Assembly: GCA_030695565.1 (NCBI GenBank)
Contig: JAUYRZ010000060.1
Location: 1 to 64,000, forward strand
DNA from: Archangium sp.
GTDB taxonomy: Bacteria; Myxococcota; Myxococcia; Myxococcales; Myxococcaceae
Direction of reading: 5' to 3'
DNA length: 64,000 nucleotides
Shown: piece by piece, positions 2,398-32,672 of the stretch
How the letters are laid out: every line of letters begins with the position of its first letter
Position numbering within the stretch: position 1 is the first letter of the stretch
Made by a program: the position numbers and the translations under genes
The notes under the pieces: model-generated
Seen by the model: the letters and a program-made list of their open reading frames with translations, nothing else
The model's database searches: none
What the model was told of the DNA's origin: nothing

Positions 2398-4059
2398 ATG
2401 GAACTGCTTCGGACGACCAGCACGGCCCCTCGCAACGAGCCCACCGCTGCCAAGGCCACTCCGCCCCCGCCCAGGCCCGCACCGGTCAAGACGACGGCGA
2501 TGAAGGCGGCCGCAGCGCGCGCGACTTCTTCGTTCAAGGCCGCGACGGCGCTCAGCCAGAAGGGCATCGACCTCATCAAGGAGTTCGAAGGTCTGCGGCT
2601 CAAGGCGTACCGCGATCCGGTCGGCGTGTGGACCATCGGGTACGGCCACACCGGCAGCGACGTGAAGCCGGGCCAGGTGATCAGCCAGACGCGCGCTGAG
2701 CAGCTGCTCAAAGGCGACACCGGCTGGGCGCAAGACGCGGTTCGCCGCAGCGTGAAGGTGCCGCTGAGCCAGGGTCAGTTCGATGCGCTCACCAGCTTCA
2801 CCTACAACCTCGGCGGGGGCGCGCTCGCGAGCTCCACGCTGGTCAAGAAGCTCAACGCCCGTGACTACGCCGGTGCGCAGAAGGAGTTCGCCCGCTGGGT
2901 GCACGCGGGTGGCCAGGTGCTCGCCGGTCTCGTTCGTCGCCGCGCCGCTGAAGCGAAGATGTTCGGCAACAAGGCGCCCAGCGCCGGCAGCACGCCTTCA
3001 CCCACGCCGACGCCTCCTCCTCCCAGCAGCCCCACTCGGAAGATCGACTACCGCGTGCGCGCGGGCGACACCTTCAGCGGCATCGCCGCGCGCAAGGGCA
3101 TGACCACCGCGCAGCTCAAGAAGATCAACCCGCAGATCCGCGACATCAACAAGATCAACGTGGGTCAGACGATCCACATCCGCCTCGCGAAGAAGGCGGC
3201 GGCTGCCACCGCGACCAAGACGTACACCGTCAAGTCGGGCGACACGTTCAGCGCCATCGCGGTGCGCAACGACTTGTCCATCGCGCAGCTCTCGAAGCTG
3301 AATCCGCAGGTTCGCGACATCAACAAGATCAACGTGGGGCAAAAGCTGACGCTCAGGGCGAAGGCTGCAGCGCCCCCGCAGACCAGGCCGCCCGCGGGCC
3401 CCGCGGCACCGGCACCGACCGTGCCCACGCAGTCGAACGCGGCGCTCAAGAACGGCGGCATTCCCAACACGTCGGGCATGTCGACGGCCAAACGGTTCGC
3501 GGTCTACGAGAAGTACATCAACCAGTTCGGTGACGCGCAGGCGAAGAAGGATCTCGCGTCGGGCAAGAAGGTCATCTTGAGCCTGCGCACCGACACCCCG
3601 ATGAGCTCGGGCCCGTACCGCGGCACCTACGACGATCGCATCGTGGTGCTGAGCAAGGACAGCAAGGGCCCTCACGTCACCGAGCTGCTCGCCAACACCG
3701 AGCCGAACCGCCGCTGGGCTGAACCTGCGAACCAGAGCAGCAAGCCCGTGGGCCGCCTCGCTGACGACCAGACCATCCGGTACCACAAGGCCTGGAGCAG
3801 CAAGTTCAACAACCACCTCCAGCCGTTCGGCACCCCCTACGCGCAGCGCGACCTCAACCGGAACTACAAGTTCGACAAGACCGACAAGAAGTACAACGGC
3901 GATTGGGGCGGGCAGCTGATGTACATCCACGGCGCCTGGACCACGGACACGGGCTCGCAAGGCTGCCAGACGATGGATGGAGGCCGCTTCGACACCTTCT
4001 GGCGCGCGCTCGGCGGACAGAACGACTTCAGCAACGTGCTGGTGAACGTCACCAAGTAG
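2398..4059 (+). CDS. GH24 lysozyme-like, LysM-containing peptidoglycan enzyme
   Basis: This 553-residue protein is predicted to cut or remodel peptidoglycan. Residues about 53-190 form a phage-lysozyme (GH24) domain. The catalytic E, D and T are visible in KEFEGLRLKAYRDP and TIGYGHT. Two LysM repeats follow, at about 216-261 and 276-320, each with YRVRAGDTFSGIA- or YTVKSGDTFSAIA-like sequence, joined by Pro-rich linkers. The last 190 residues are not a standard lysozyme part. They end with YIHGAWTTDTGSQGC, which resembles the His...Ser-x-Gly-Cys signature of L,D-transpeptidases. The ATG at 2398 follows GGGAGAG; an in-frame GTG lies at 2368. No classical signal peptide is seen. Confidence 0.85.
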   Translation: MELLRTTSTAPRNEPTAAKATPPPPRPAPVKTTAMKAAAARATSSFKAATALSQKGIDLIKEFEGLRLKAYRDPVGVWTIGYGHTGSDVKPGQVISQTRAEQLLKGDTGWAQDAVRRSVKVPLSQGQFDALTSFTYNLGGGALASSTLVKKLNARDYAGAQKEFARWVHAGGQVLAGLVRRRAAEAKMFGNKAPSAGSTPSPTPTPPPPSSPTRKIDYRVRAGDTFSGIAARKGMTTAQLKKINPQIRDINKINVGQTIHIRLAKKAAAATATKTYTVKSGDTFSAIAVRNDLSIAQLSKLNPQVRDINKINVGQKLTLRAKAAAPPQTRPPAGPAAPAPTVPTQSNAALKNGGIPNTSGMSTAKRFAVYEKYINQFGDAQAKKDLASGKKVILSLRTDTPMSSGPYRGTYDDRIVVLSKDSKGPHVTELLANTEPNRRWAEPANQSSKPVGRLADDQTIRYHKAWSSKFNNHLQPFGTPYAQRDLNRNYKFDKTDKKYNGDWGGQLMYIHGAWTTDTGSQGCQTMDGGRFDTFWRALGGQNDFSNVLVNVTK

Positions 4060-7303: not shown

Positions 7304-10300
7304 TCAGCCACGTCCAAACCGCAAATACACGACGGGCAGCACGAGCAGGTTCAGCACCGTCGAGCTGATCAAACCGCCCAGCACCACCACCGCCATGGGG
7401 TGCTCAATCTCATGCCCCGGTGCATTGCCCGCCAACACGAGGGGCACCAGCGCCAATCCAGTCGCGCACGCCGTCATGAGAATGGGCCCCAGCCGCTCGA
7501 GGCTGCCGCGGCGCACCAGGCTCTCACCAAACGGCATGCCTTCCGCTTCCAGGTGACGGTAGTGCGTCACGAGCAGAATCCCGTTGCGCGCGGCGATGCC
7601 CAGCACGGTGACGAGGCCGACCATCGAACCAAGTGAGAGCACGCCTCCCGAAATCCACGCGCCGGCCGCGCCGCCCACCAACGCAAAGGGAAGACTGGCG
7701 GCGACGAGCGCGGTCCTCCGCACCGACTGAAGATCGAGGTAGAGCACCGCGAGCACCAACACCAGCGAGAGCAGCCCGAAACCCAGCAGCCGCTGCGTGG
7801 CGGCTTGCCGCTCCTTCCACTCACCGAGCACCTCGGCATGATGCGCGACGGGCCAGATCTCCTGCGCGACGATGGCCTCGACGGCCTTCGCGACGGTGCT
7901 CAAGTCTCCCGAGACGTCGATGGAGACGTCGATGCGCCGCGAGGTGCTCTCGTGGGGAATCTGATTGGGCGTCGGCTCGATGGTGAGCGAGCTCACCTCG
8001 CCCAGGGTCGCGCGGGTGCCCGCCGCTGACTCGACCTGCACCGCACGCAACGACGTGACGTCTTCGCGCAGCGCCTGCTCACCGCTCACCACCACGGGGA
8101 TGCTGCGGCCCTGCTCGATGAGCTCACCGACCCGTTGCCCCCGAACGAAGAGGTCGACCGACGCGCGGACGTCGGCTGCCAGAAAGCCCAGCGCCGCCGC
8201 TTCAGGCCTGATCGCCGAGCGCACCTCGGGCACGAGCGCTTGCTGCTCGACCTTCACCGAAGTCACGCCGGGAATGGTCTTGAGCTTGCCTGCGAGCGCC
8301 GCGGCACTTCCGCGAAGGGTCTCGAGGTCGGGCCCGAAGATGCGCACGACGACCGCGCCTGGCGCGCCCGTGAGCACCTCACGCACGCGCTCCCGCAGAT
8401 ACGTCTCGAGATCGCGGCGCAGCCCCGGGTACTTCGAGATCACCGCCAACACCTTCTTCGAGACGTCCTCGTGCGAGACGCCCTCCCCCACGTGGATCCA
8501 CAGCTCGCCGAAGTTCGGCCCGACGACTTCATCGGCGGCCTCTGCTCTTCCCAGGTGCGAGCCGAAGCTGGTGACCCCCTCGATCGCGCGCAGCTCGAGG
8601 CTCACCCGCTCGGTCGTGCGACGCAGCGCCGGGAGCGACGTGCCCGGCTGCGCGACCCAGTGCATGAGGAAGTCGTTCTCTTTGAACTCGGGAAGGAACG
8701 AGGTGCCCAGCAGCAGCGTGGCCACGCCCGCGAGCACCATCGAGGCGACACCACCAGCGATGACGGCGCGGGGGCGTTGCAGCAGCCGAGGGAGCATGAC
8801 CTCGTAGCGCCGGCTCAGCCAGGTGAGCACCGGAGAGTGCGTGGCCTCGAGGCTGGTGCCGGGCAGCAGGAGCATCGACAGCGCGGGCGTGACGGTGAGC
8901 GCGACGGCGAGTGAAGCGAACACGGCGAGCCCGTACGCGAGCGCGAGCGGCTGGAAGAACGCGCCCGAGAGGCCTCCGAGGAACCACACCGGGAGGAACA
9001 CGAGCATCACGATGACCGTCGCGTAGACCACCGCGCTGCGCACCTCGAGGGAGGCCTCGAGCACCACGGTCAACACGCTCCTCGGGCTCGGCAACGACGC
9101 GTTCTCGCGCAGCCGCCGATAGATGTTCTCCACGTCGATGATGGCGTCGTCGACCACCTCGCCGAGCGCGATCACCAGGCCCGCGAGGATCATGGTGTTG
9201 AGCGTGCCGCCGAGCGCCCGGAGCGCGATCAACGCCGCCGCCAGCGAGAGGGGAATGGCCAGAGAGGAGATGAGCGCGGTGCGCCAGTTCCACAAGAAGA
9301 GCCAGAGCACGCCGATGACCAACAGACAGCCAATCAGCAGCGCCTCCTCGAGGTTGCTGATGGAGCGTTCGATGAACTCAGCCGGGCGGAAGATGTGCGA
9401 ATCGAACACGACGCCGGGCATCGCGGGCGCCACCGCAGTGAGCACCTGATCGACTCTCTGGGTGATCTCCAGCGTGTTGCCCCACGGCTGTTTCTCGACG
9501 ATGAGCAGCAGACCCGGGACGTCGTTGATGACCGCGTCACCGATCGGCGGCGCGAACGTATCGCTCACCTTCGCCACGTCGTTGACGCGCACCACCGCGC
9601 CGTTCCGGCTCGCGATGGGCAGACTCGCCAGTTGTTCGAGCGTGCGCACGGGGGCCACGTGGGTCAGCGGCAGGCGTTGATTGGGGCCGTCGATGAAGCC
9701 ACCCGCGAGCGGCTGGGTGGCGCCTCGCACGCCACGCAGGAGCTCATCGATGGTCACGCCGTTGGCCTGCAGCCGGGCCACGTCGAGCTCGACCCGGTAC
9801 TCGCGTTCGCGTGAACCCCAGATCGCCACGTTGGCCACCCCGGGGATCGCCAGCAGCCTCGGCCGCAGCGTCCACCGCACCAGCTCGCTCAGCTCGACCT
9901 GGCTCGCCGTCTTCGAGGTGAGCCCGACCTTCAGCGCCCGGCTGGTCGACGAGAGCGGCGGCATCATCACCGGCGGTCTCGAGGCCGAAGGGAGCAACGC
10001 CATCGCGCGCGCGAGGCGCTCCTGCACCAGCTGACGTGCCACCAACAGCTCGACGCTCGGGTCGAACAACAACACCACCGACGAGAGCCCGAGCACCGAC
10101 TTCGAGCGCACCGTCTTGACGAAGGGTACGCCGGCCAGCGTGGTCTCCAGCGGCGTGGTGACCAGCTGCTCCACGTCGAGGCTGGAGAGCCCAGGCGCCT
10201 CGGTCTGCACCTCGACGAAGGGTGGCGCGAACTCGGGAAAGGCGTCGATGGGCGCGTCGCGGCCTGCGCGGAAGCCGAGCACCAGCAGCACGCCCGAGAG

Positions 10301-26987: not shown

Positions 26988-27545
26988 ATGTCCAGGAACG
27001 AACCGTCGTCCGAGCTGGTCACTGCCACCGCCACCGTGGAAGCCGAGCTGCAACGTTTCGAAGACGCCACCGAGGCGTTCGGCAAGATCTCGCTCAACTC
27101 GCAGAAGAACCTCGAGAAGGCGAAGAAGGCGCTCAACGAGTTGGCCGATGGCGAACAGCGCGTGGTGGAGGGCGTGCAGCTGCTGGTCAAGGCGATCGGC
27201 ACCGTGAGGGATCGGCAGCTGGCGCAGGTCGAACACATCCGCGTGAAGGCCGAGCAGCTCAGCGCCCGCGCGGTGGTCTTTCAGTCGCTCGAGCTGGAGC
27301 TGAGCAAGCTGGGGGAAGATGCCTCGAGGCTCAGCGACAAGCTCAAGGAAGTGCCGGGCGCTTCGCCGGCCGTCGAGTTCGATGAAGAAATGGGCAAGCT
27401 CGCGCAGGGCGCCAAGAGCGTGGCCGAACGGGCGACCAGCGAAGACTTCGATGATCTGTCACGCGTGGCGGACGGGTTGCGGCAGCAGATCCTCGCGGTG
27501 CGGTCGAAGCTCAAGTTGATCACCAAGCCCAACGCTTCCGCCTGA
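26988..27545 (+). CDS. coiled-coil protein, function unknown
   Basis: This 185-residue acidic protein is predicted helical almost throughout, with heptad-like stretches (about 15-75 and 85-115) and no signal, helix anchor or Cys. Repeated Glu/Lys/Leu patterns such as KNLEKAKKALNELADGEQ suggest a bundle. Only a weak purine stretch lies before the ATG. It lies after the chemosensory-like module in the same direction, but 264 bases away, so it may not belong to it. The bufferin operon converges on it (next end at 27555). Confidence 0.65.
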   Translation: MSRNEPSSELVTATATVEAELQRFEDATEAFGKISLNSQKNLEKAKKALNELADGEQRVVEGVQLLVKAIGTVRDRQLAQVEHIRVKAEQLSARAVVFQSLELELSKLGEDASRLSDKLKEVPGASPAVEFDEEMGKLAQGAKSVAERATSEDFDDLSRVADGLRQQILAVRSKLKLITKPNASA

Positions 27546-27554
27546 AGCGAGGGA

Positions 27555-28238
27555 CTACGGCACCAGCGTCCTCGTTCTGAGCTTGCTTCGGATCAGCACG
27601 GCCACGCCGCCCAGCACCACCGCCGGCAGCAGGTGAAACGCGGCGATGTGAGCGATCGTGCCGTTCGAGCAGTGCAGGTGCAGCGCCAACGCGCCACCTG
27701 ACGCGGCCGCGAGCGCCCCCACGAACACGTGTGAAGCCGTCGCCGCGAAACGGGTCGAGAGCACCAGCAACACGCTCACGGGGATCAACGCCACCGAACA
27801 CTCGACGAAGGCGCAGCCCATGCCCCTGAAGAACGGCGCCCCCGGGTCGAAACCCGACGCACCGCCGATGGCCAACACCGAGGCGATCACGAACCCGGCA
27901 CCGACCACCAACCGCGAGGTCATCGCGCCCGGCCGCAGCCACAACACCGACCCCACCGACATCATCAACAACCACGCGACCGCGACCACCGAGCGCATGG
28001 TCATCGAGCCGTGCTGCAGATCAGACCAGCTCATCGCGGCCGCCGCGCCGAGGCCCATCACCAGGTTGAGCGCGAGCAAGACGAGCCCATCCATCCACCA
28101 GGGGCGCGCCTTCGGGTGTGCGGCCAGTTCTTCACGCGCCGCGCGGGCGAGCCGCCGCAAGGCCTCGTCTGACTTCGGCGCCCCACCCGAGGCCAACACC
28201 GCCGCGTCGAGGCGCTCATCGGGCGTCTTCGTCATCAT
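27555..28238 (-). CDS. NrsF-like (DUF1109) membrane anti-sigma factor
   Basis: This 227-residue protein has an N-terminal cytoplasmic arm of about 45 residues and six membrane helices (about 50-70, 80-100, 108-125, 140-160, 166-186, 192-212). That is the layout of NrsF/DUF1109 anti-sigma factors. Cysteines fall in the membrane region (GCAFVECS) and near a loop (HLHCSNG), as in metal- or oxidant-sensing members. It overlaps the ECF sigma gene by four bases. Established NrsF proteins hold their ECF factor at the membrane and release it under copper or related stress. Family assignment is from topology and context. Confidence 0.75.
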   Translation of the reverse strand: MMTKTPDERLDAAVLASGGAPKSDEALRRLARAAREELAAHPKARPWWMDGLVLLALNLVMGLGAAAAMSWSDLQHGSMTMRSVVAVAWLLMMSVGSVLWLRPGAMTSRLVVGAGFVIASVLAIGGASGFDPGAPFFRGMGCAFVECSVALIPVSVLLVLSTRFAATASHVFVGALAAASGGALALHLHCSNGTIAHIAAFHLLPAVVLGGVAVLIRSKLRTRTLVP

Positions 28239-28774
28239 GGCCAGACTCCCTTGAGCAACTCCCGCAGCCGTTCGTAGCCACGGTGTGCGCGCACTTTGAC
28301 GGCCGACTCCGTCACGCCTGCGTTCACGGCGATCTCCGCGAACGAAAGCCCCTCGTAACGGTTCAGCACGATCGCCTCTCGCTGCGCTTCCGGCAGTTGG
28401 GCCAGCGCCTGCTTCACGGCCTTCTCCAGACCCGGGTCATGTTCGAGGCCCGGCTCGGCTTCGCCTTCAGGCAGCTCACCATCGACGGACACCGCCTCGA
28501 ACTTCGTGCGCCGGCGCCAGTCGCGCGCTGCGTTGGTGGCGATGGCGTACAACCACGGCTTCACCTTCGCGCCTTGTAGAAAACGGCCGCGGCCCTTCAC
28601 CATCGAGACGAAGGTGATCTGCGTCAGATCATCCGCCACCGCACCCGACCCGCTCAGCCGCTCCAGGTAGCGGCGCAGGGGGCTCGCATGCCGGCCGAAC
28701 AGCGCGTCGAAGGCCCGGGCGTCTCCTTGAACGAAGCGGGCCATCAGATCCTCGTCAGTCGGCTCGCTCGTCAC
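28235..28774 (-). CDS. ECF-type RNA polymerase sigma factor (SigF-like by context)
   Basis: This 179-residue sigma factor has region 2 (FDALFGRHASPLRRYLERL, then TQITFVSMVKGR and PWLYAIATNAARDWRRR). Region 4 is PEAQREAIVLNRYEGLSFAE with the helix-turn-helix AGVTESAVKVRAHRGYERLR. There is no extra domain. Its start at 28774 lies 20 bases inside the end of the upstream bufferin-maturation gene, and its end overlaps the anti-sigma gene. It is therefore part of a four-gene operon and probably activates that operon from the ECF-like promoter at 30762-30787. Confidence 0.93.
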   Translation of the reverse strand: MTSEPTDEDLMARFVQGDARAFDALFGRHASPLRRYLERLSGSGAVADDLTQITFVSMVKGRGRFLQGAKVKPWLYAIATNAARDWRRRTKFEAVSVDGELPEGEAEPGLEHDPGLEKAVKQALAQLPEAQREAIVLNRYEGLSFAEIAVNAGVTESAVKVRAHRGYERLRELLKGVWP

Positions 28775-30422
28775 GGGAAGCGTCGGACCCTAGCCGAGAA
28801 AGGGAAGACACCATGCCTTCCGAAAACCAGCTCTGCAGTGCCTCGAAGGCAGCCACGCCGCCGTCATCGAGCTCTTCGAACGGAGACAACAACACAGGCA
28901 GCTCCGCACCGGCGACCAGGCTCTGCAACGCTTCGGCCTCACCACCGGCGATCGCCGCGTGGAAGACCACGAAGCCCTTGCGCCACACCACCAACGCCGT
29001 CGGCGTCTTCACGAGGGCCGGCAGCGGCAGACCATCACGCTGCGCCCGGAGCACCGGCTGCGGATCACTCTCCAACACCAACACCCGAACGGAAGGATGC
29101 GCCCGCAGCGTCAGTTCGCCCCACAGCTCCGGGGGGACCTCCTGAAGCTGCGCGAAGGTGATCTCTTCACCATCGGGCGCGATGAAGCTCTCCGCACGCG
29201 CCCACTCCAGCGCGGCCACGTCGGCCCAGTCCGGGCGGGCCGTCTCGAGAAACGCGGGGAACGGCTGACCCAGGCGATCGAGCGACGGGTGGGTGGAGGG
29301 GTGCACGCGCAGAAAATCAGCCACCAACGCGTCGAAGTTTTCGTCACCCACCCCGGCCCGCACCGTGGGGAAGCTGTCGCGCAACACGTCGCGCATGCGC
29401 AGCCAGTACATCTCGGCGTACACCTCGATGCGCGCCTTCGCGGAGAGCGGCGGGTGTTCGGCGATGAGCGCTTCGGCCTCTGCCGAGACGGGCGTGGGAT
29501 CGCAGATGGCGGAGAAGATCGTCTGCTGCAATCCGGTCATCCCGAGCGAAGTCGAGGGAGCACTCGGGCCCCGGGCGACCCGTGGCATCTCGACTGCGCT
29601 CGATGCGAACGGTGCTCGAATCGCCCGCGCCTTCTCGGCCTCGGCCAGAAGCGTCTGCAACTCAGGCACGCCGTCATCCCACTCGATCAACGTGGACACC
29701 GCGCCGAAGCGCCCGAGCGCGCGCGCATAGAGCGCCCACACCTCGTCGCTCACCGGCCCATCGTGCGTGTCGATGATCAACTCGGGCCGCCGTTGATGGC
29801 CCGCGAGGTGAATCTGCACCACCTTCTCCACCGGCACGCCCGAGAGGTACGCGTCGGGATCGAACCCGTGGTTGCGGCTGGAGACGAAGATGTTGTTCAC
29901 GTCGAGCAGCACCTCGCAGCCCGAGCGCTGCGCGACCTGAGCGAGGAACTCCCACTCGGTCAGCTCGCTCTGCACGAAGGTCAGGTAGCTCGACACGTTC
30001 TCCAGCGCGATGCGGCGGCCCAGAAAGTCCTGCACCTGGGTCACCCGATCCACCACGTGACGCACGGCCTCCTCGGTGAAGGCCGCGGGGAGCAGGTCGT
30101 GCGAATAGCGCCCGTGCGCCCGGCCCCAACACAGATGATCCGAGACGATCGCCGGCTCGATGCGCGCGATCAGCGCCTGCCAGTCCTTCAGGTAGCGGGG
30201 GTCCAACGGCTCCGCGCTCCCGATGCCCAACGAGACCCCGTGCAACACCACGGGGCGATCACGACGCACCTTCTCGAGCACCGCGAGCGGTCTGCCGCCC
30301 ACGCCCATGAAGTTCTCCGAGATCGCCTCGACCCAATCGACGGCCGGGGCTGACTCGAGGAACTCCCGGTAGTGCCGGGGCCGAAGCCCCACACCAAACC
30401 CGAGAGGTGCGCGCGCACTCAT
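28755..30422 (-). CDS. fused bufferin maturation protein (DUF692 MNIO + DUF2063)
   Basis: This 555-residue protein fuses two normally separate factors. Residues about 1-270 are a DUF692 multinuclear non-haem iron oxidase (BufB-like): GFGVGLRPRHYREFL, DWVEAISENFM, VLHGVSLGIG, SDHLCWG, LENVSSYL, LLDVNNIFVSSRNHG, IHLAGH and DTHDGPV carry the His/Glu/Asp/Asn metal ligands. Residues about 300-555 match the DUF2063 partner (BufC-like) that recruits the precursor: RIEVYAEMYWLRMRDVLRDS and PSLDRLGQPFPAFLE. The linker is encoded by a palindromic repeat at 29536-29610. It starts four bases after the precursor stop codon. Confidence 0.9.
   Translation of the reverse strand: MSARAPLGFGVGLRPRHYREFLESAPAVDWVEAISENFMGVGGRPLAVLEKVRRDRPVVLHGVSLGIGSAEPLDPRYLKDWQALIARIEPAIVSDHLCWGRAHGRYSHDLLPAAFTEEAVRHVVDRVTQVQDFLGRRIALENVSSYLTFVQSELTEWEFLAQVAQRSGCEVLLDVNNIFVSSRNHGFDPDAYLSGVPVEKVVQIHLAGHQRRPELIIDTHDGPVSDEVWALYARALGRFGAVSTLIEWDDGVPELQTLLAEAEKARAIRAPFASSAVEMPRVARGPSAPSTSLGMTGLQQTIFSAICDPTPVSAEAEALIAEHPPLSAKARIEVYAEMYWLRMRDVLRDSFPTVRAGVGDENFDALVADFLRVHPSTHPSLDRLGQPFPAFLETARPDWADVAALEWARAESFIAPDGEEITFAQLQEVPPELWGELTLRAHPSVRVLVLESDPQPVLRAQRDGLPLPALVKTPTALVVWRKGFVVFHAAIAGGEAEALQSLVAGAELPVLLSPFEELDDGGVAAFEALQSWFSEGMVSSLSRLGSDASRDERAD
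29536..29610. repeat. family-2 repeat, copy 1, encodes the BufB-BufC linker
   Basis: End blocks CATCCCGAGCGAAGTCGAGG and ATCTCGACTGCGCTCGATG bracket this stretch. Two blocks (21 bases at 29585-29605 and 15 bases at 29549-29563) match copy 2 at 54387-54426 exactly, in the same relative order. On the coding strand it reads through without a stop as FASSAVEMPRV...STSLGMT. Confidence 0.85.
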
Positions 30423-30426
30423 CGAC

Positions 30427-30702
30427 TTACATCTTCTTCGCGGCGGCGGCGACCTTGCCACCCTTGGTCTTGCAGTCGGCGGCGCTCAGGCTGATCCAGC
30501 CCTTGCCCTTGCACTCGTTCATGCCGGCACAGTCGTGGGAGGCGTTGCCACAGGCACCCTTGCCCTTGCACTCGTTGACGCCTTCACAGCTGACCTGCGC
30601 GACTTCCTTCGCGTCTTTCGCCTTGACCGGCTTGTCCGCGGCAAACGCGCTCAACGAGGCAACGGCAGACAGCAGGATCAGGCCCTTGGTGGTGTTCTTC
30701 AC
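30427..30702 (-). CDS. bufferin-type Cys-rich metallophore precursor (BufA-like)
   Basis: This 91-residue exported precursor has a signal peptide (MKNTTKGLILLSAVASLSAF, then AA). The mature part has six Cys at about 39, 45, 51, 58, 64 and 77, within CEGVNECKGKGAC, DCAGMNECKGKGWI and DCKTKGG, and ends in a Lys/Ala tail. This matches the periplasmic bufferin family whose cysteines are oxidised to copper-binding heterocycles by DUF692/DUF2063 enzymes. The GTG at 30702 is preceded by GGGGAG and begins directly at the signal. The maturation enzyme follows after four bases. Copper as ligand is family knowledge; it is not shown by sequence. Confidence 0.87.
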   Translation of the reverse strand: MKNTTKGLILLSAVASLSAFAADKPVKAKDAKEVAQVSCEGVNECKGKGACGNASHDCAGMNECKGKGWISLSAADCKTKGGKVAAAAKKM

Positions 30703-30761
30703 GTGGTGATTCTCCCCAACATTTTCGTGCCGCTCGGGAGGAGCGGACACGTTGTGCCCTG

Positions 30762-30787
30762 TACGCGTGGTCCCCAACTCTGGTTTC
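30762..30787 (-). promoter_or_regulatory. ECF-type promoter of the bufferin operon
   Basis: Reading the minus strand, GAAACC (30787-30782) is followed after exactly 16 bases by CGTA (30765-30762), about 60 bases before the bufA GTG. This closely resembles the GTAACC-N16-CGAA form reported for Caulobacter SigF. The operon encodes its own ECF factor, so autoregulation is likely. Confidence 0.55.
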
Positions 30788-30926
30788 ACCCGTCCAGTAC
30801 TTCCCGCACCCTACCGCCGATGGCCCCCCGTTTCCGCCGCCGTCACCCGTCGACCCCACGGTGATGTCCCTCTCCGAAGGGGGGGCGCTCGTGCTACGCG
30901 ACGCTCTCAATTCTTCAGGAGTCGGA

Positions 30927-32672
30927 ATGACGCCCATCGAGAAACGGAACCTCGTCGCGCAGTGGGCCTTCGACACGCGCCCGGTGCTGCTGCGGTTTCA
31001 CCTCTGGCTGGAAGACGTCGAGGTCGAACGTGCGCAGCCCGAGGCCGTCTCGGCGCACACCTTCACACCCCGCGACATCGCCCGCTGCCTGGCGCTCACC
31101 TCGGCGGCCACCGCCCTGGGCACCAAGCTCTTCGGCCAATTCGGTGAGGGCAAGGGCCTCGACAAGCAGGGCTACAACCAGGTGAAGAAGGCCGCCGACG
31201 CGGTGAGCGCGTACATGATGAGCGAGGGCCTCTGGCACCTCACCCGCTCGTTGCCGGAGAACCACGCGCTGATGGTGTGCCTGGGTGAAGGCCTCATGCC
31301 CAAGGCCGGCGAGACGCCCGAGATGGGCGCCAACCCGTTGCTCGGTTTCGGCCGCGTCTACGCCCGCCCCGAGGTGGCCCGCTTCGTCGACGGCGAGGTG
31401 CGCCGGCTGCTCAACGACCCCAGGCCGCGTTTTCAGGATTTCTACGCAGCGCTGCAGAAGAAGGGCATCACCCTGTGGGGCGCCGCGGTGGACACCCTGG
31501 AGAACACCTCGCGGTTCGCGGAGGGCAAAGACACCGGCCCGATGTGCGTGCTGCACCTGTTCGACTCGCCGCTCACGGTCACCCGGCCGTACGAGGCGTA
31601 CTTCGGAAATCTCACGGTGCCCGGCGCGGTGGCGAGAGAAGCCGAACGCCGCTCGGTGATGCTCGACTGGGCCACCCCGCGTGCCCAGGTGCTCGACGTC
31701 ATTCAGAGCACCTACCCGGGCATCAAGAGCCAGAACGTGCACGTGTGGACGTTGGGGGGAAAGAGCCGCGTCAAGCGCATGCACCGGCTGTGGGCCGAGT
31801 GGGAAAAGCTCGGCGTGCACCTGGTGGAAGACGGGTGGATCGCCCCGACCGGCATCGCCACCTTCAACGACTCGGGCACCTACGCGCCGACGTTCCTGGT
31901 GAAGTCGTGGGTCGACGCGAAGGGCGAGACGCAGGTCTTCCTGGTCGATGGCTACGCGGCCACCGCCGAAGCGATGCAGGCGGCCAGCTTGTCCGAGGTG
32001 CTCGACGTGGACTCCACCATGTCGGTGCTCTCGCCCACCTTCGAGTTGCCGCACGACGAGGAGTACGCGCTGATGCGCAGCGCGCCCGACGCGGAGTTCG
32101 GCAGCAAGGTGAAAGACCCGGCGATGGTGGCGCACTACCGCGAGTCGGTGGCCACCGCCGAGCTCTCCAACGTGCCGCTGCGCCACCGCACCCTGCGCGC
32201 GCAGGACTTCCTGCCCGAGAAACACTGGCGGGTGCTCGCGTCGATCGGCTACCTGAGCGACGACCCGTACACGGGCACGCACGGCGTGGAGAAGATCGAC
32301 GAGCTGCGCTACCGGGTCACCACGCGGCTCTACACGCACGCGGCCTCGAGCAAGATCACCTTCACCCTGCGCCTCAAGGACAGCCTCGAAGAGTCGCGGC
32401 TGGTGTTCAGCCCGCTGCTGGTGCGCTTCCTCGACGGCGATGACTTCCGGCAGCGCGCGGTGAAGATCTCCGACTCGGGGCGCATTCGCAACGAGCTGCA
32501 GACGTTGATCAGCCAGGCCCTCGAGTACGACGGCGATCGGATCAAGGTTCACTTCGATCGCATCGACGACAAGGTGTTGCCGAAGAAGAAGCAGGAACAG
32601 ATTCGCGAGATCCTGCAGTGGTACCGCACCGAGCACCCGGTCTGGTTCGAGTGGCTCGAGCTGCACGGCTGA
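30927..32672 (+). CDS. uncharacterised 581-residue protein
   Basis: I do not recognise this protein. It has no signal peptide or membrane helix and is a mixed alpha/beta soluble protein, with many Trp, Tyr and Arg residues typical of an enzyme or large binding protein. Segments such as LGGKSRVKRMHRLWAEWEKLGVH and FNDSGTYAPTFLVKSWVDAK look well ordered. The C-terminal 60 residues are helical and charged. AGGAG lies before the ATG at 30927, which sets this start against an open frame from 30861. It is divergent from the bufferin operon and may share its control region. Confidence 0.75.
   Translation: MTPIEKRNLVAQWAFDTRPVLLRFHLWLEDVEVERAQPEAVSAHTFTPRDIARCLALTSAATALGTKLFGQFGEGKGLDKQGYNQVKKAADAVSAYMMSEGLWHLTRSLPENHALMVCLGEGLMPKAGETPEMGANPLLGFGRVYARPEVARFVDGEVRRLLNDPRPRFQDFYAALQKKGITLWGAAVDTLENTSRFAEGKDTGPMCVLHLFDSPLTVTRPYEAYFGNLTVPGAVAREAERRSVMLDWATPRAQVLDVIQSTYPGIKSQNVHVWTLGGKSRVKRMHRLWAEWEKLGVHLVEDGWIAPTGIATFNDSGTYAPTFLVKSWVDAKGETQVFLVDGYAATAEAMQAASLSEVLDVDSTMSVLSPTFELPHDEEYALMRSAPDAEFGSKVKDPAMVAHYRESVATAELSNVPLRHRTLRAQDFLPEKHWRVLASIGYLSDDPYTGTHGVEKIDELRYRVTTRLYTHAASSKITFTLRLKDSLEESRLVFSPLLVRFLDGDDFRQRAVKISDSGRIRNELQTLISQALEYDGDRIKVHFDRIDDKVLPKKKQEQIREILQWYRTEHPVWFEWLELHG

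Follow-up and report, generated by a model that had tools for sequence, protein, structure and literature searches.

Can a bacterial operon that encodes a copper-binding peptide also carry, within one transcript, the enzyme that matures the peptide and the regulators that switch its genes on? The question is raised by four adjoining genes in a 64,000-nucleotide stretch of DNA (the window) from contig JAUYRZ010000060.1 of an Archangium sp. with a genome of 8.5 Mb. On the minus strand, from 30702 to 27555, lie bufA2, bufBC, the gene of an extracytoplasmic function (ECF) sigma factor and that of an anti-sigma factor, with junctions of +4, -20 and -4 bases (Table 1); a sequence-only reading had described four open reading frames (ORFs) on one strand, and its coordinates and junctions were all re-found exactly. 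The genes would be co-transcribed as one operon. We consider it likely that this is a self-contained copper-protection operon under positive autoregulation, the peptide being a bufferin, a class for which the current group name is captophorins and which is characterized by 5-thiooxazoles and copper binding (PMC13097082).

The bufferin precursor and its fused maturase

The product of the first gene, of 91 residues, which had been read as a bufferin precursor with a signal peptide and six cysteines, is by profile comparison a bufferin of the second family (Buf2/BufA2), scoring 75.5 bits against the BufA2 profile NF050166 (cut-off 60). Its hydrophobic start, ending in SAFA-A, was judged by eye to be a Sec-type signal peptide, and is followed by the six-cysteine core SCEGVNECKGKGACG...CAGMNECKGKG...DCKTKGG. 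The six cysteines and their spacing are kept in the bufA2 homologues at nearly all related loci, and this is the sole BufA2 gene found across the genome. From what is known of these families, Sec export, cysteine modification and copper binding would be expected.

The second gene product appears from its domains to be a bufferin maturase (MNIO/BufB) and a DUF2063-RRE partner (BufC) in one chain, which probably matures BufA2. It scored 372.6 bits against the MNIO_BufB profile NF050167 (cut-off 310) and 361 bits against PF05114, and the same chain matched PF09836 (DUF2063) with 71.3 bits (cut-off 27.2); the HvfC profile, at 41 bits, remained below its cut-off. The MNIO domain (residues about 1-276) is joined to the DUF2063/RRE partner (about 296-548) by a flexible linker at about 270-295, the one weak stretch of an AlphaFold2 (AF2) model of the single chain that otherwise had a predicted local distance difference test score (pLDDT) of 91.9 and a predicted template modelling score (pTM) of 0.89. 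In a structure search the MNIO half matched TglH (8hi7_B) with Z 28.1 and a root mean square deviation of 2.8 over 270 residues, well above the Z of about 16 reached by unrelated isomerase barrels, and it retains 25 of the 25 nearly invariant charged or polar barrel residues (H, D, E, N, R, C), taken as the columns at least 95% conserved across 33 alignment rows. Within the second half the model shows a domain of strands and helices, at about 430-545; no PDB sequence matched this half, and no fold match to it was found among the matches listed, a list filled by barrels and so not evidence against an RRE.

The linker-coding stretch carries the palindromic repeat arms CGAGCGAAGTCGAG and CGAGCGCAGTCGAG, which keep the frame and translate as ...RGPSAPSTSLGMTG. 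The arm CGAGCGNAGTCGAG has 78 copies in this genome, against one for the reversed control, many of them forming inverted pairs with a spacing of about 46 bp. Linkers vary between fusions, that of the congener G051 being shorter and free of the palindromic repeat.

Distribution of the operon and of the fusion

The congeners G051 and G050 have the same four genes in order, with junctions of +4/-20/-4 and +7/-17/-4, respectively, and this recurrence of order and overlaps places the arrangement beyond chance. Identity with the congeners is 77% for the fused protein (G051) and 83% and 50% for the anti-sigma factor. Of the six genomes that represent the genus, three thereby have the complete order; in G052 the sigma/anti-sigma pair stands alone on a short contig, adjoining a rhodanese-like gene, and G049 (97% complete) and G053 (79% complete) yielded neither the bufferin operon nor the pair. 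Beyond the genus, bufA2, maturase and partner are three separate genes in G092, where the sigma/anti-sigma pair is divergent, and G128 has bufA2, ecf and anti-sigma in a row, the maturase being absent from that spot. In a tree of ECF sigma factors the three operon-borne sigmas and that of G052 form one clade (support 99/93), and those of G092 and G128 fall elsewhere; because G052 is nested within the clade, loss of the bufferin genes beside its pair is as likely as a late capture in the others.

Maturase and partner are separate genes in most other Myxococcaceae, and MNIO-DUF2063 fusions occur also in G129, G002 and Omnitrophota. The sequence-only reading was right that the two maturation factors are fused; the chain has 555 residues, and the fusion is not unique to this operon. 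In a tree of the maturase half the myxococcal fusions stand together (this genome, G051 and G050, with G129 as sister; support 92/80), the fusions of Omnitrophota and G002 are placed elsewhere, and the strongly supported branches require at least three changes between the fused and separate states. The fusion may have arisen at least three times, or have been repeatedly lost; a unique event was ruled out by the positions of G129, Omnitrophota and G002. In the main texts of the literature covered, we found no description of an MNIO-DUF2063 fusion.

In an Anaeromyxobacter and two relatives, the gene directly behind the Buf2 maturase and partner genes encodes a different ECF sigma factor (L134, about 8410-9035; L128, about 7403-8014; L035, about 3280-3868), so ECF genes from more than one sigma group have become linked to Buf2.

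The sigma/anti-sigma pair

The third gene encodes an ECF sigma factor, as had been proposed, with PF04542 (region 2) and PF08281 (region 4) both over the Pfam cut-offs. In the ECF tree it belongs to a group related to CarQ yet apart from it, and its clade is far from sigma-F. The fourth product had been described as a six-helix NrsF-like protein, with the SigF/NrsF pair of Caulobacter as the precedent. Six helices are indeed present in its AF2 model (47-68, 79-99, 106-125, 136-161, 168-189 and 195-217; pLDDT 69, moderate), which suggests cytosolic N-terminal helices followed by six long hydrophobic membrane helices. The likeness to NrsF did not hold: the NrsF profile PF06532 gave 18.6 bits, short of the cut-off at 26.8, and hhalign returned a probability of 98.6% against CarR (E 1e-15, 204 columns, 28% identity) as against a marginal 17% (E 0.0015) for seven NrsF proteins. 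With these results and the tree, an NrsF orthologue was ruled out; the pair is nearer to CarQ/CarR, and the Caulobacter precedent belongs to Buf1 operons, the precursor here being Buf2. From the profile comparison the protein is a CarR-like, DUF1109-type anti-sigma factor, homologous to CarR over most of its length.

The CarR reference set was drawn from carQRS operons in relatives (L212-L215), located by marker genes, each with an ECF gene, a six-helix anti-sigma gene and a CarS-like gene, taken to be carS. The operon studied here has no carS, and the trees hold its sigma and anti-sigma clades apart from the car clade; lying outside the carR clade, the anti-sigma factor is not classed as a CarR orthologue. 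A structure search with its model gave no match below E 0.8 and no solved relative.

Two cysteines towards the C-terminus, Cys142 and Cys190, are kept as a pair in all the relatives listed, in the clade of this protein and in the CarR group alike, and the marginal alignment with NrsF sets them against two NrsF cysteines. If the N-terminus is inside, helices 4 and 5 would carry them at their periplasmic ends. Most members of this clade add the motif HxHC..G[TS]..H....H, which CarR lacks and which would likewise lie close to the periplasmic face, and the resulting Cys/His cluster may, judging from the residues only, be a metal sensor. Copper inactivates CarR, as does singlet oxygen (PMC8156234, PMC9304148), and replacement of two conserved cysteines in NrsF releases sigma-F (PMC3511200).

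Relatives of the pair lie beside a gene that, judged by eye, encodes a site-2-protease-like M50 metalloprotease at L196 and L180, with a peroxiredoxin-like gene also near at L196. At L180 (4865-6199, genome G129) one sigma gene is followed by two tandem anti-sigma genes.

The promoter and its position

The element TGAAACC-N16-CGTA precedes bufA2 (Table 1), recurs in the same position in G051 and has the form TGTAACT-N16-CGTA in G050. With a spacer of 16-17, the exact pattern occurs at two sites in the 8.5 Mb genome (the other at L008, on contig C22) and at none in the reversed control, a post hoc count because the pattern was derived from the bufA2 site. Definition of a genome-wide regulon by the motif was dropped, there being no enrichment in this genome. 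Within about 90 nucleotides before the sigma domain, and at a narrow distance from it, G[AT]AACN-N15/16-CGTA was found in 26 of 36 related ECF genes, compared with 1 of 36 on the reverse strand and a shuffle mean of 0.027. In the Myxococcota set, 18 of 38 regions upstream of Buf2 contain a close version (2 reversed; shuffle mean 0.035), counts that overstate independence because the regions are related to one another.

The best evidence for self-regulation, on these comparisons, is the shift of the promoter with the sigma gene. All four in-operon sigma genes (this one and those of G051, G050 and G128) lack the motif directly upstream and have it before bufA2, whereas the stand-alone pair of G052 has it 5' of the sigma gene, at -86; the position of the promoter therefore follows the operon. 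G092 has a copy for bufA2 and a second for its divergent sigma gene. The sigma factor of the operon would accordingly be the candidate to read the bufA2 promoter, and the single self-regulated operon of the sequence-only reading gains support from conserved promoter and synteny.

At L013, L014, L015, L017, L018, L131 and other loci in Myxococcota, GAAACC-N16-CGTA stands about 170-270 nucleotides before the first bufA2 cysteine codon, with no linked sigma gene. The Buf2 loci of Novosphingobium and Xanthomonas have the Caulobacter form GTAACC-N16-CGAA.

Proposed mechanism and alternatives

Most likely, the sigma factor and its membrane anti-sigma factor switch the operon on. At rest the six-helix anti-sigma factor would, as its family suggests, keep the ECF sigma at the membrane. 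Excess copper in the periplasm, or another thiol-reactive metal or an oxidant, would act on Cys142/Cys190 and the histidine cluster, and the anti-sigma factor, once disturbed, would free the sigma to transcribe the operon from TGAAACC-N16-CGTA, raising the output of peptide, of maturase and of the regulators themselves. The DUF2063-RRE half of BufBC would bind the BufA2 precursor while the MNIO half oxidized the core cysteines, probably to 5-thiooxazoles; exported by Sec, the peptide would then bind periplasmic copper and lower the signal.

Several points count against this account. Some MNIO-DUF2063 clusters, such as mmr of Microbulbifer, are not copper-induced (PMC12538549), and the modification chemistry of Buf2 is less well established than that of Buf1 (PMC12452194). 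Across this genome GWAACC-N16/17-CGTA occurs 15 times against 17 in the control, which is chance level, so that synteny and the relatives carry the case for the bufA2 site. The carQRS promoters, moreover, have a similar GAAAC-N16-CGT element, and for this reason CarQ could also read the one before bufA2.

The signal for the same operon might also not be copper: the anti-sigma factor may answer mainly to singlet oxygen and oxidative stress or to a different thiol-reactive metal, with the peptide taking part in a broader response to oxidative or metal stress. This would fit the inactivation of CarR, the closest characterized anti-sigma relative, by light or singlet oxygen with plasmalogens as well as by copper (PMC9304148), the response of NrsF to chromate and cadmium (PMC3511200), and the peroxiredoxin-like gene and M50 protease that adjoin relatives of the pair in a Myxococcus-like genome. 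However, the HxHC...H...H of this anti-sigma clade is like a metal site and is missing in CarR, and the characterized MNIO-PME1 products are as a rule copper binders that respond to copper, gold or oxidative stress (PMC13097082); we regard a signal other than copper as unlikely, if a serious candidate. Another possibility is that the regulator pair is a passenger, read through from a bufferin promoter that a different sigma, such as a CarQ paralogue, recognizes. Many Buf2 operons of Myxococcota do have the promoter without a linked sigma gene, the carQRS promoters are similar and a CarQR-type pair exists elsewhere in this genome (G000:C73). Passenger genes would hardly explain why the 20/17- and 4-base overlaps are conserved, why the pair lost its own promoter exactly where it entered the operon or why sigma genes are linked to Buf2 in several arrangements (G092, G128), and the -35 end differs, GAAACC here compared with GAAACA or GAAACG at car; we think this explanation improbable.

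That the fusion is a pseudo-join or an assembly error, with BufB and BufC made separately, is suggested by the palindromic repeat in the linker and by the two genes of most relatives, but the frame is open in three congeners and in G129 with differing linkers, the single-chain model is confident and fusions occur in unrelated phyla, which leaves this idea with hardly any credence. The copper-protection operon remains the preferred reading.

Neighbouring genes and related loci

A convergent plus-strand ORF stops at 27545, about ten bases from the stop codon of the anti-sigma gene. On the other side, a divergent plus-strand ORF of 603 residues (30861-32672) begins at about 30861, adjoining the operon; no Pfam or NCBIfam family exceeded its cut-off there.

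Table 1. Features of the bufferin operon in the window.
Feature	Coordinates	Strand	Description
bufA2	30427..30702	-	Buf2-family bufferin precursor, 91 aa, GTG start
bufBC (fused MNIO-DUF2063 gene)	28755..30422	-	555 aa, ATG start
ECF sigma factor gene	28235..28774	-	179 aa; Sigma70_r2 and r4_2 over cut-off
CarR-like (DUF1109-type) anti-sigma gene	27555..28238	-	227 aa
ECF-type promoter, TGAAACC-N16-CGTA	30762..30788	-	5' of bufA2; kept in G051, variant in G050
Palindromic interspersed repeat	29543..29602	.	Within the linker-coding stretch of bufBC, in frame

Elsewhere in the same genome, a second maturase/partner pair (L004, 5307-7514, contig C28) comes after a lipoprotein-like protein that contains both GCPAGCPA repeats and a CxxCH resembling that of cytochromes, which is possibly another, larger MNIO substrate. 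An MNIO-like protein of 476 residues with a weaker match lies at L005 (5410-6840, contig C107), with no bufferin in view.

Comparison with known systems and significance

The Buf2 clusters described previously (Buf_6/12Cys, BufA2; PMC12452194) likewise have a six-cysteine BufA2 with a signal peptide, an MNIO maturase and a DUF2063-RRE partner; here, in contrast, maturase and partner are fused, an ECF/anti-sigma pair is included and no doxX gene was seen in the cluster. In Caulobacter, where sigF-nrsF acts with Buf1/gig operons (PMC3511200, PMC12452194), an ECF sigma and a membrane anti-sigma factor with two key cysteines drive bufferin genes, as they would here, and the promoter GTAACC-N16-CGAA resembles TGAAACC-N16-CGTA. 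The Caulobacter sigma gene, however, is transcribed from a promoter of its own and its product governs several operons, whereas ours is encoded by the third gene of its target operon, and both of our regulators fall outside the SigF/NrsF clade. CarQ/CarR of M. xanthus (PMC8156234, PMC9304148) share with our pair an ECF sigma, a six-helix DUF1109-type anti-sigma factor and translational coupling; they are autoregulated and copper-responsive, as our pair would be. Our pair differs in its separate clade, the lack of CarS, the extra HxHC...H...H and a bufferin rather than a carotenoid target. With the enzyme-partner complexes TglHI and MbnBC (8hi7, 7tcr) the maturase has the MNIO fold and the invariant residues in common, in two chains there and in one here.

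Each part is therefore already known; the novelty, within the literature covered, lies in a Buf2 operon that has its own CarR-type pair and a one-chain maturase. There is perhaps an even chance that a Buf2 operon acquired a CarQ/CarR-type pair whose own promoter was lost there. Sensing, transcription, maturation and binding would then form a minimal closed copper-response loop on a single transcript, in which a Cys/His metal site in the membrane was the sensor and the maturase a single chain, and this would be one of several independent ECF-Buf2 couplings in Myxococcota.

A survey of MNIO clusters published in 2025 recorded sigma/anti-sigma genes in Buf1 and none in Buf2 clusters (PMC12452194). 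That rule has a second exception in Novosphingobium sp. FKTRR1 (L068/L170), where sigF-nrsF immediately precedes a Buf2 cluster; contrary to the survey, such genes are present in Buf2 clusters of Myxococcota and in one of Novosphingobium. The one-chain BufBC would fix the ratio of enzyme to partner at 1:1, which may be useful for structural and mechanistic work, and the complete loop spans just 3.3 kb. The ECF-type promoter before many Buf2 operons without a linked sigma gene predicts a Buf2 regulator and offers a testable promoter, and the operon would tie the unexplained copper response of CarR-type anti-sigma factors to a plausible copper-buffering target.

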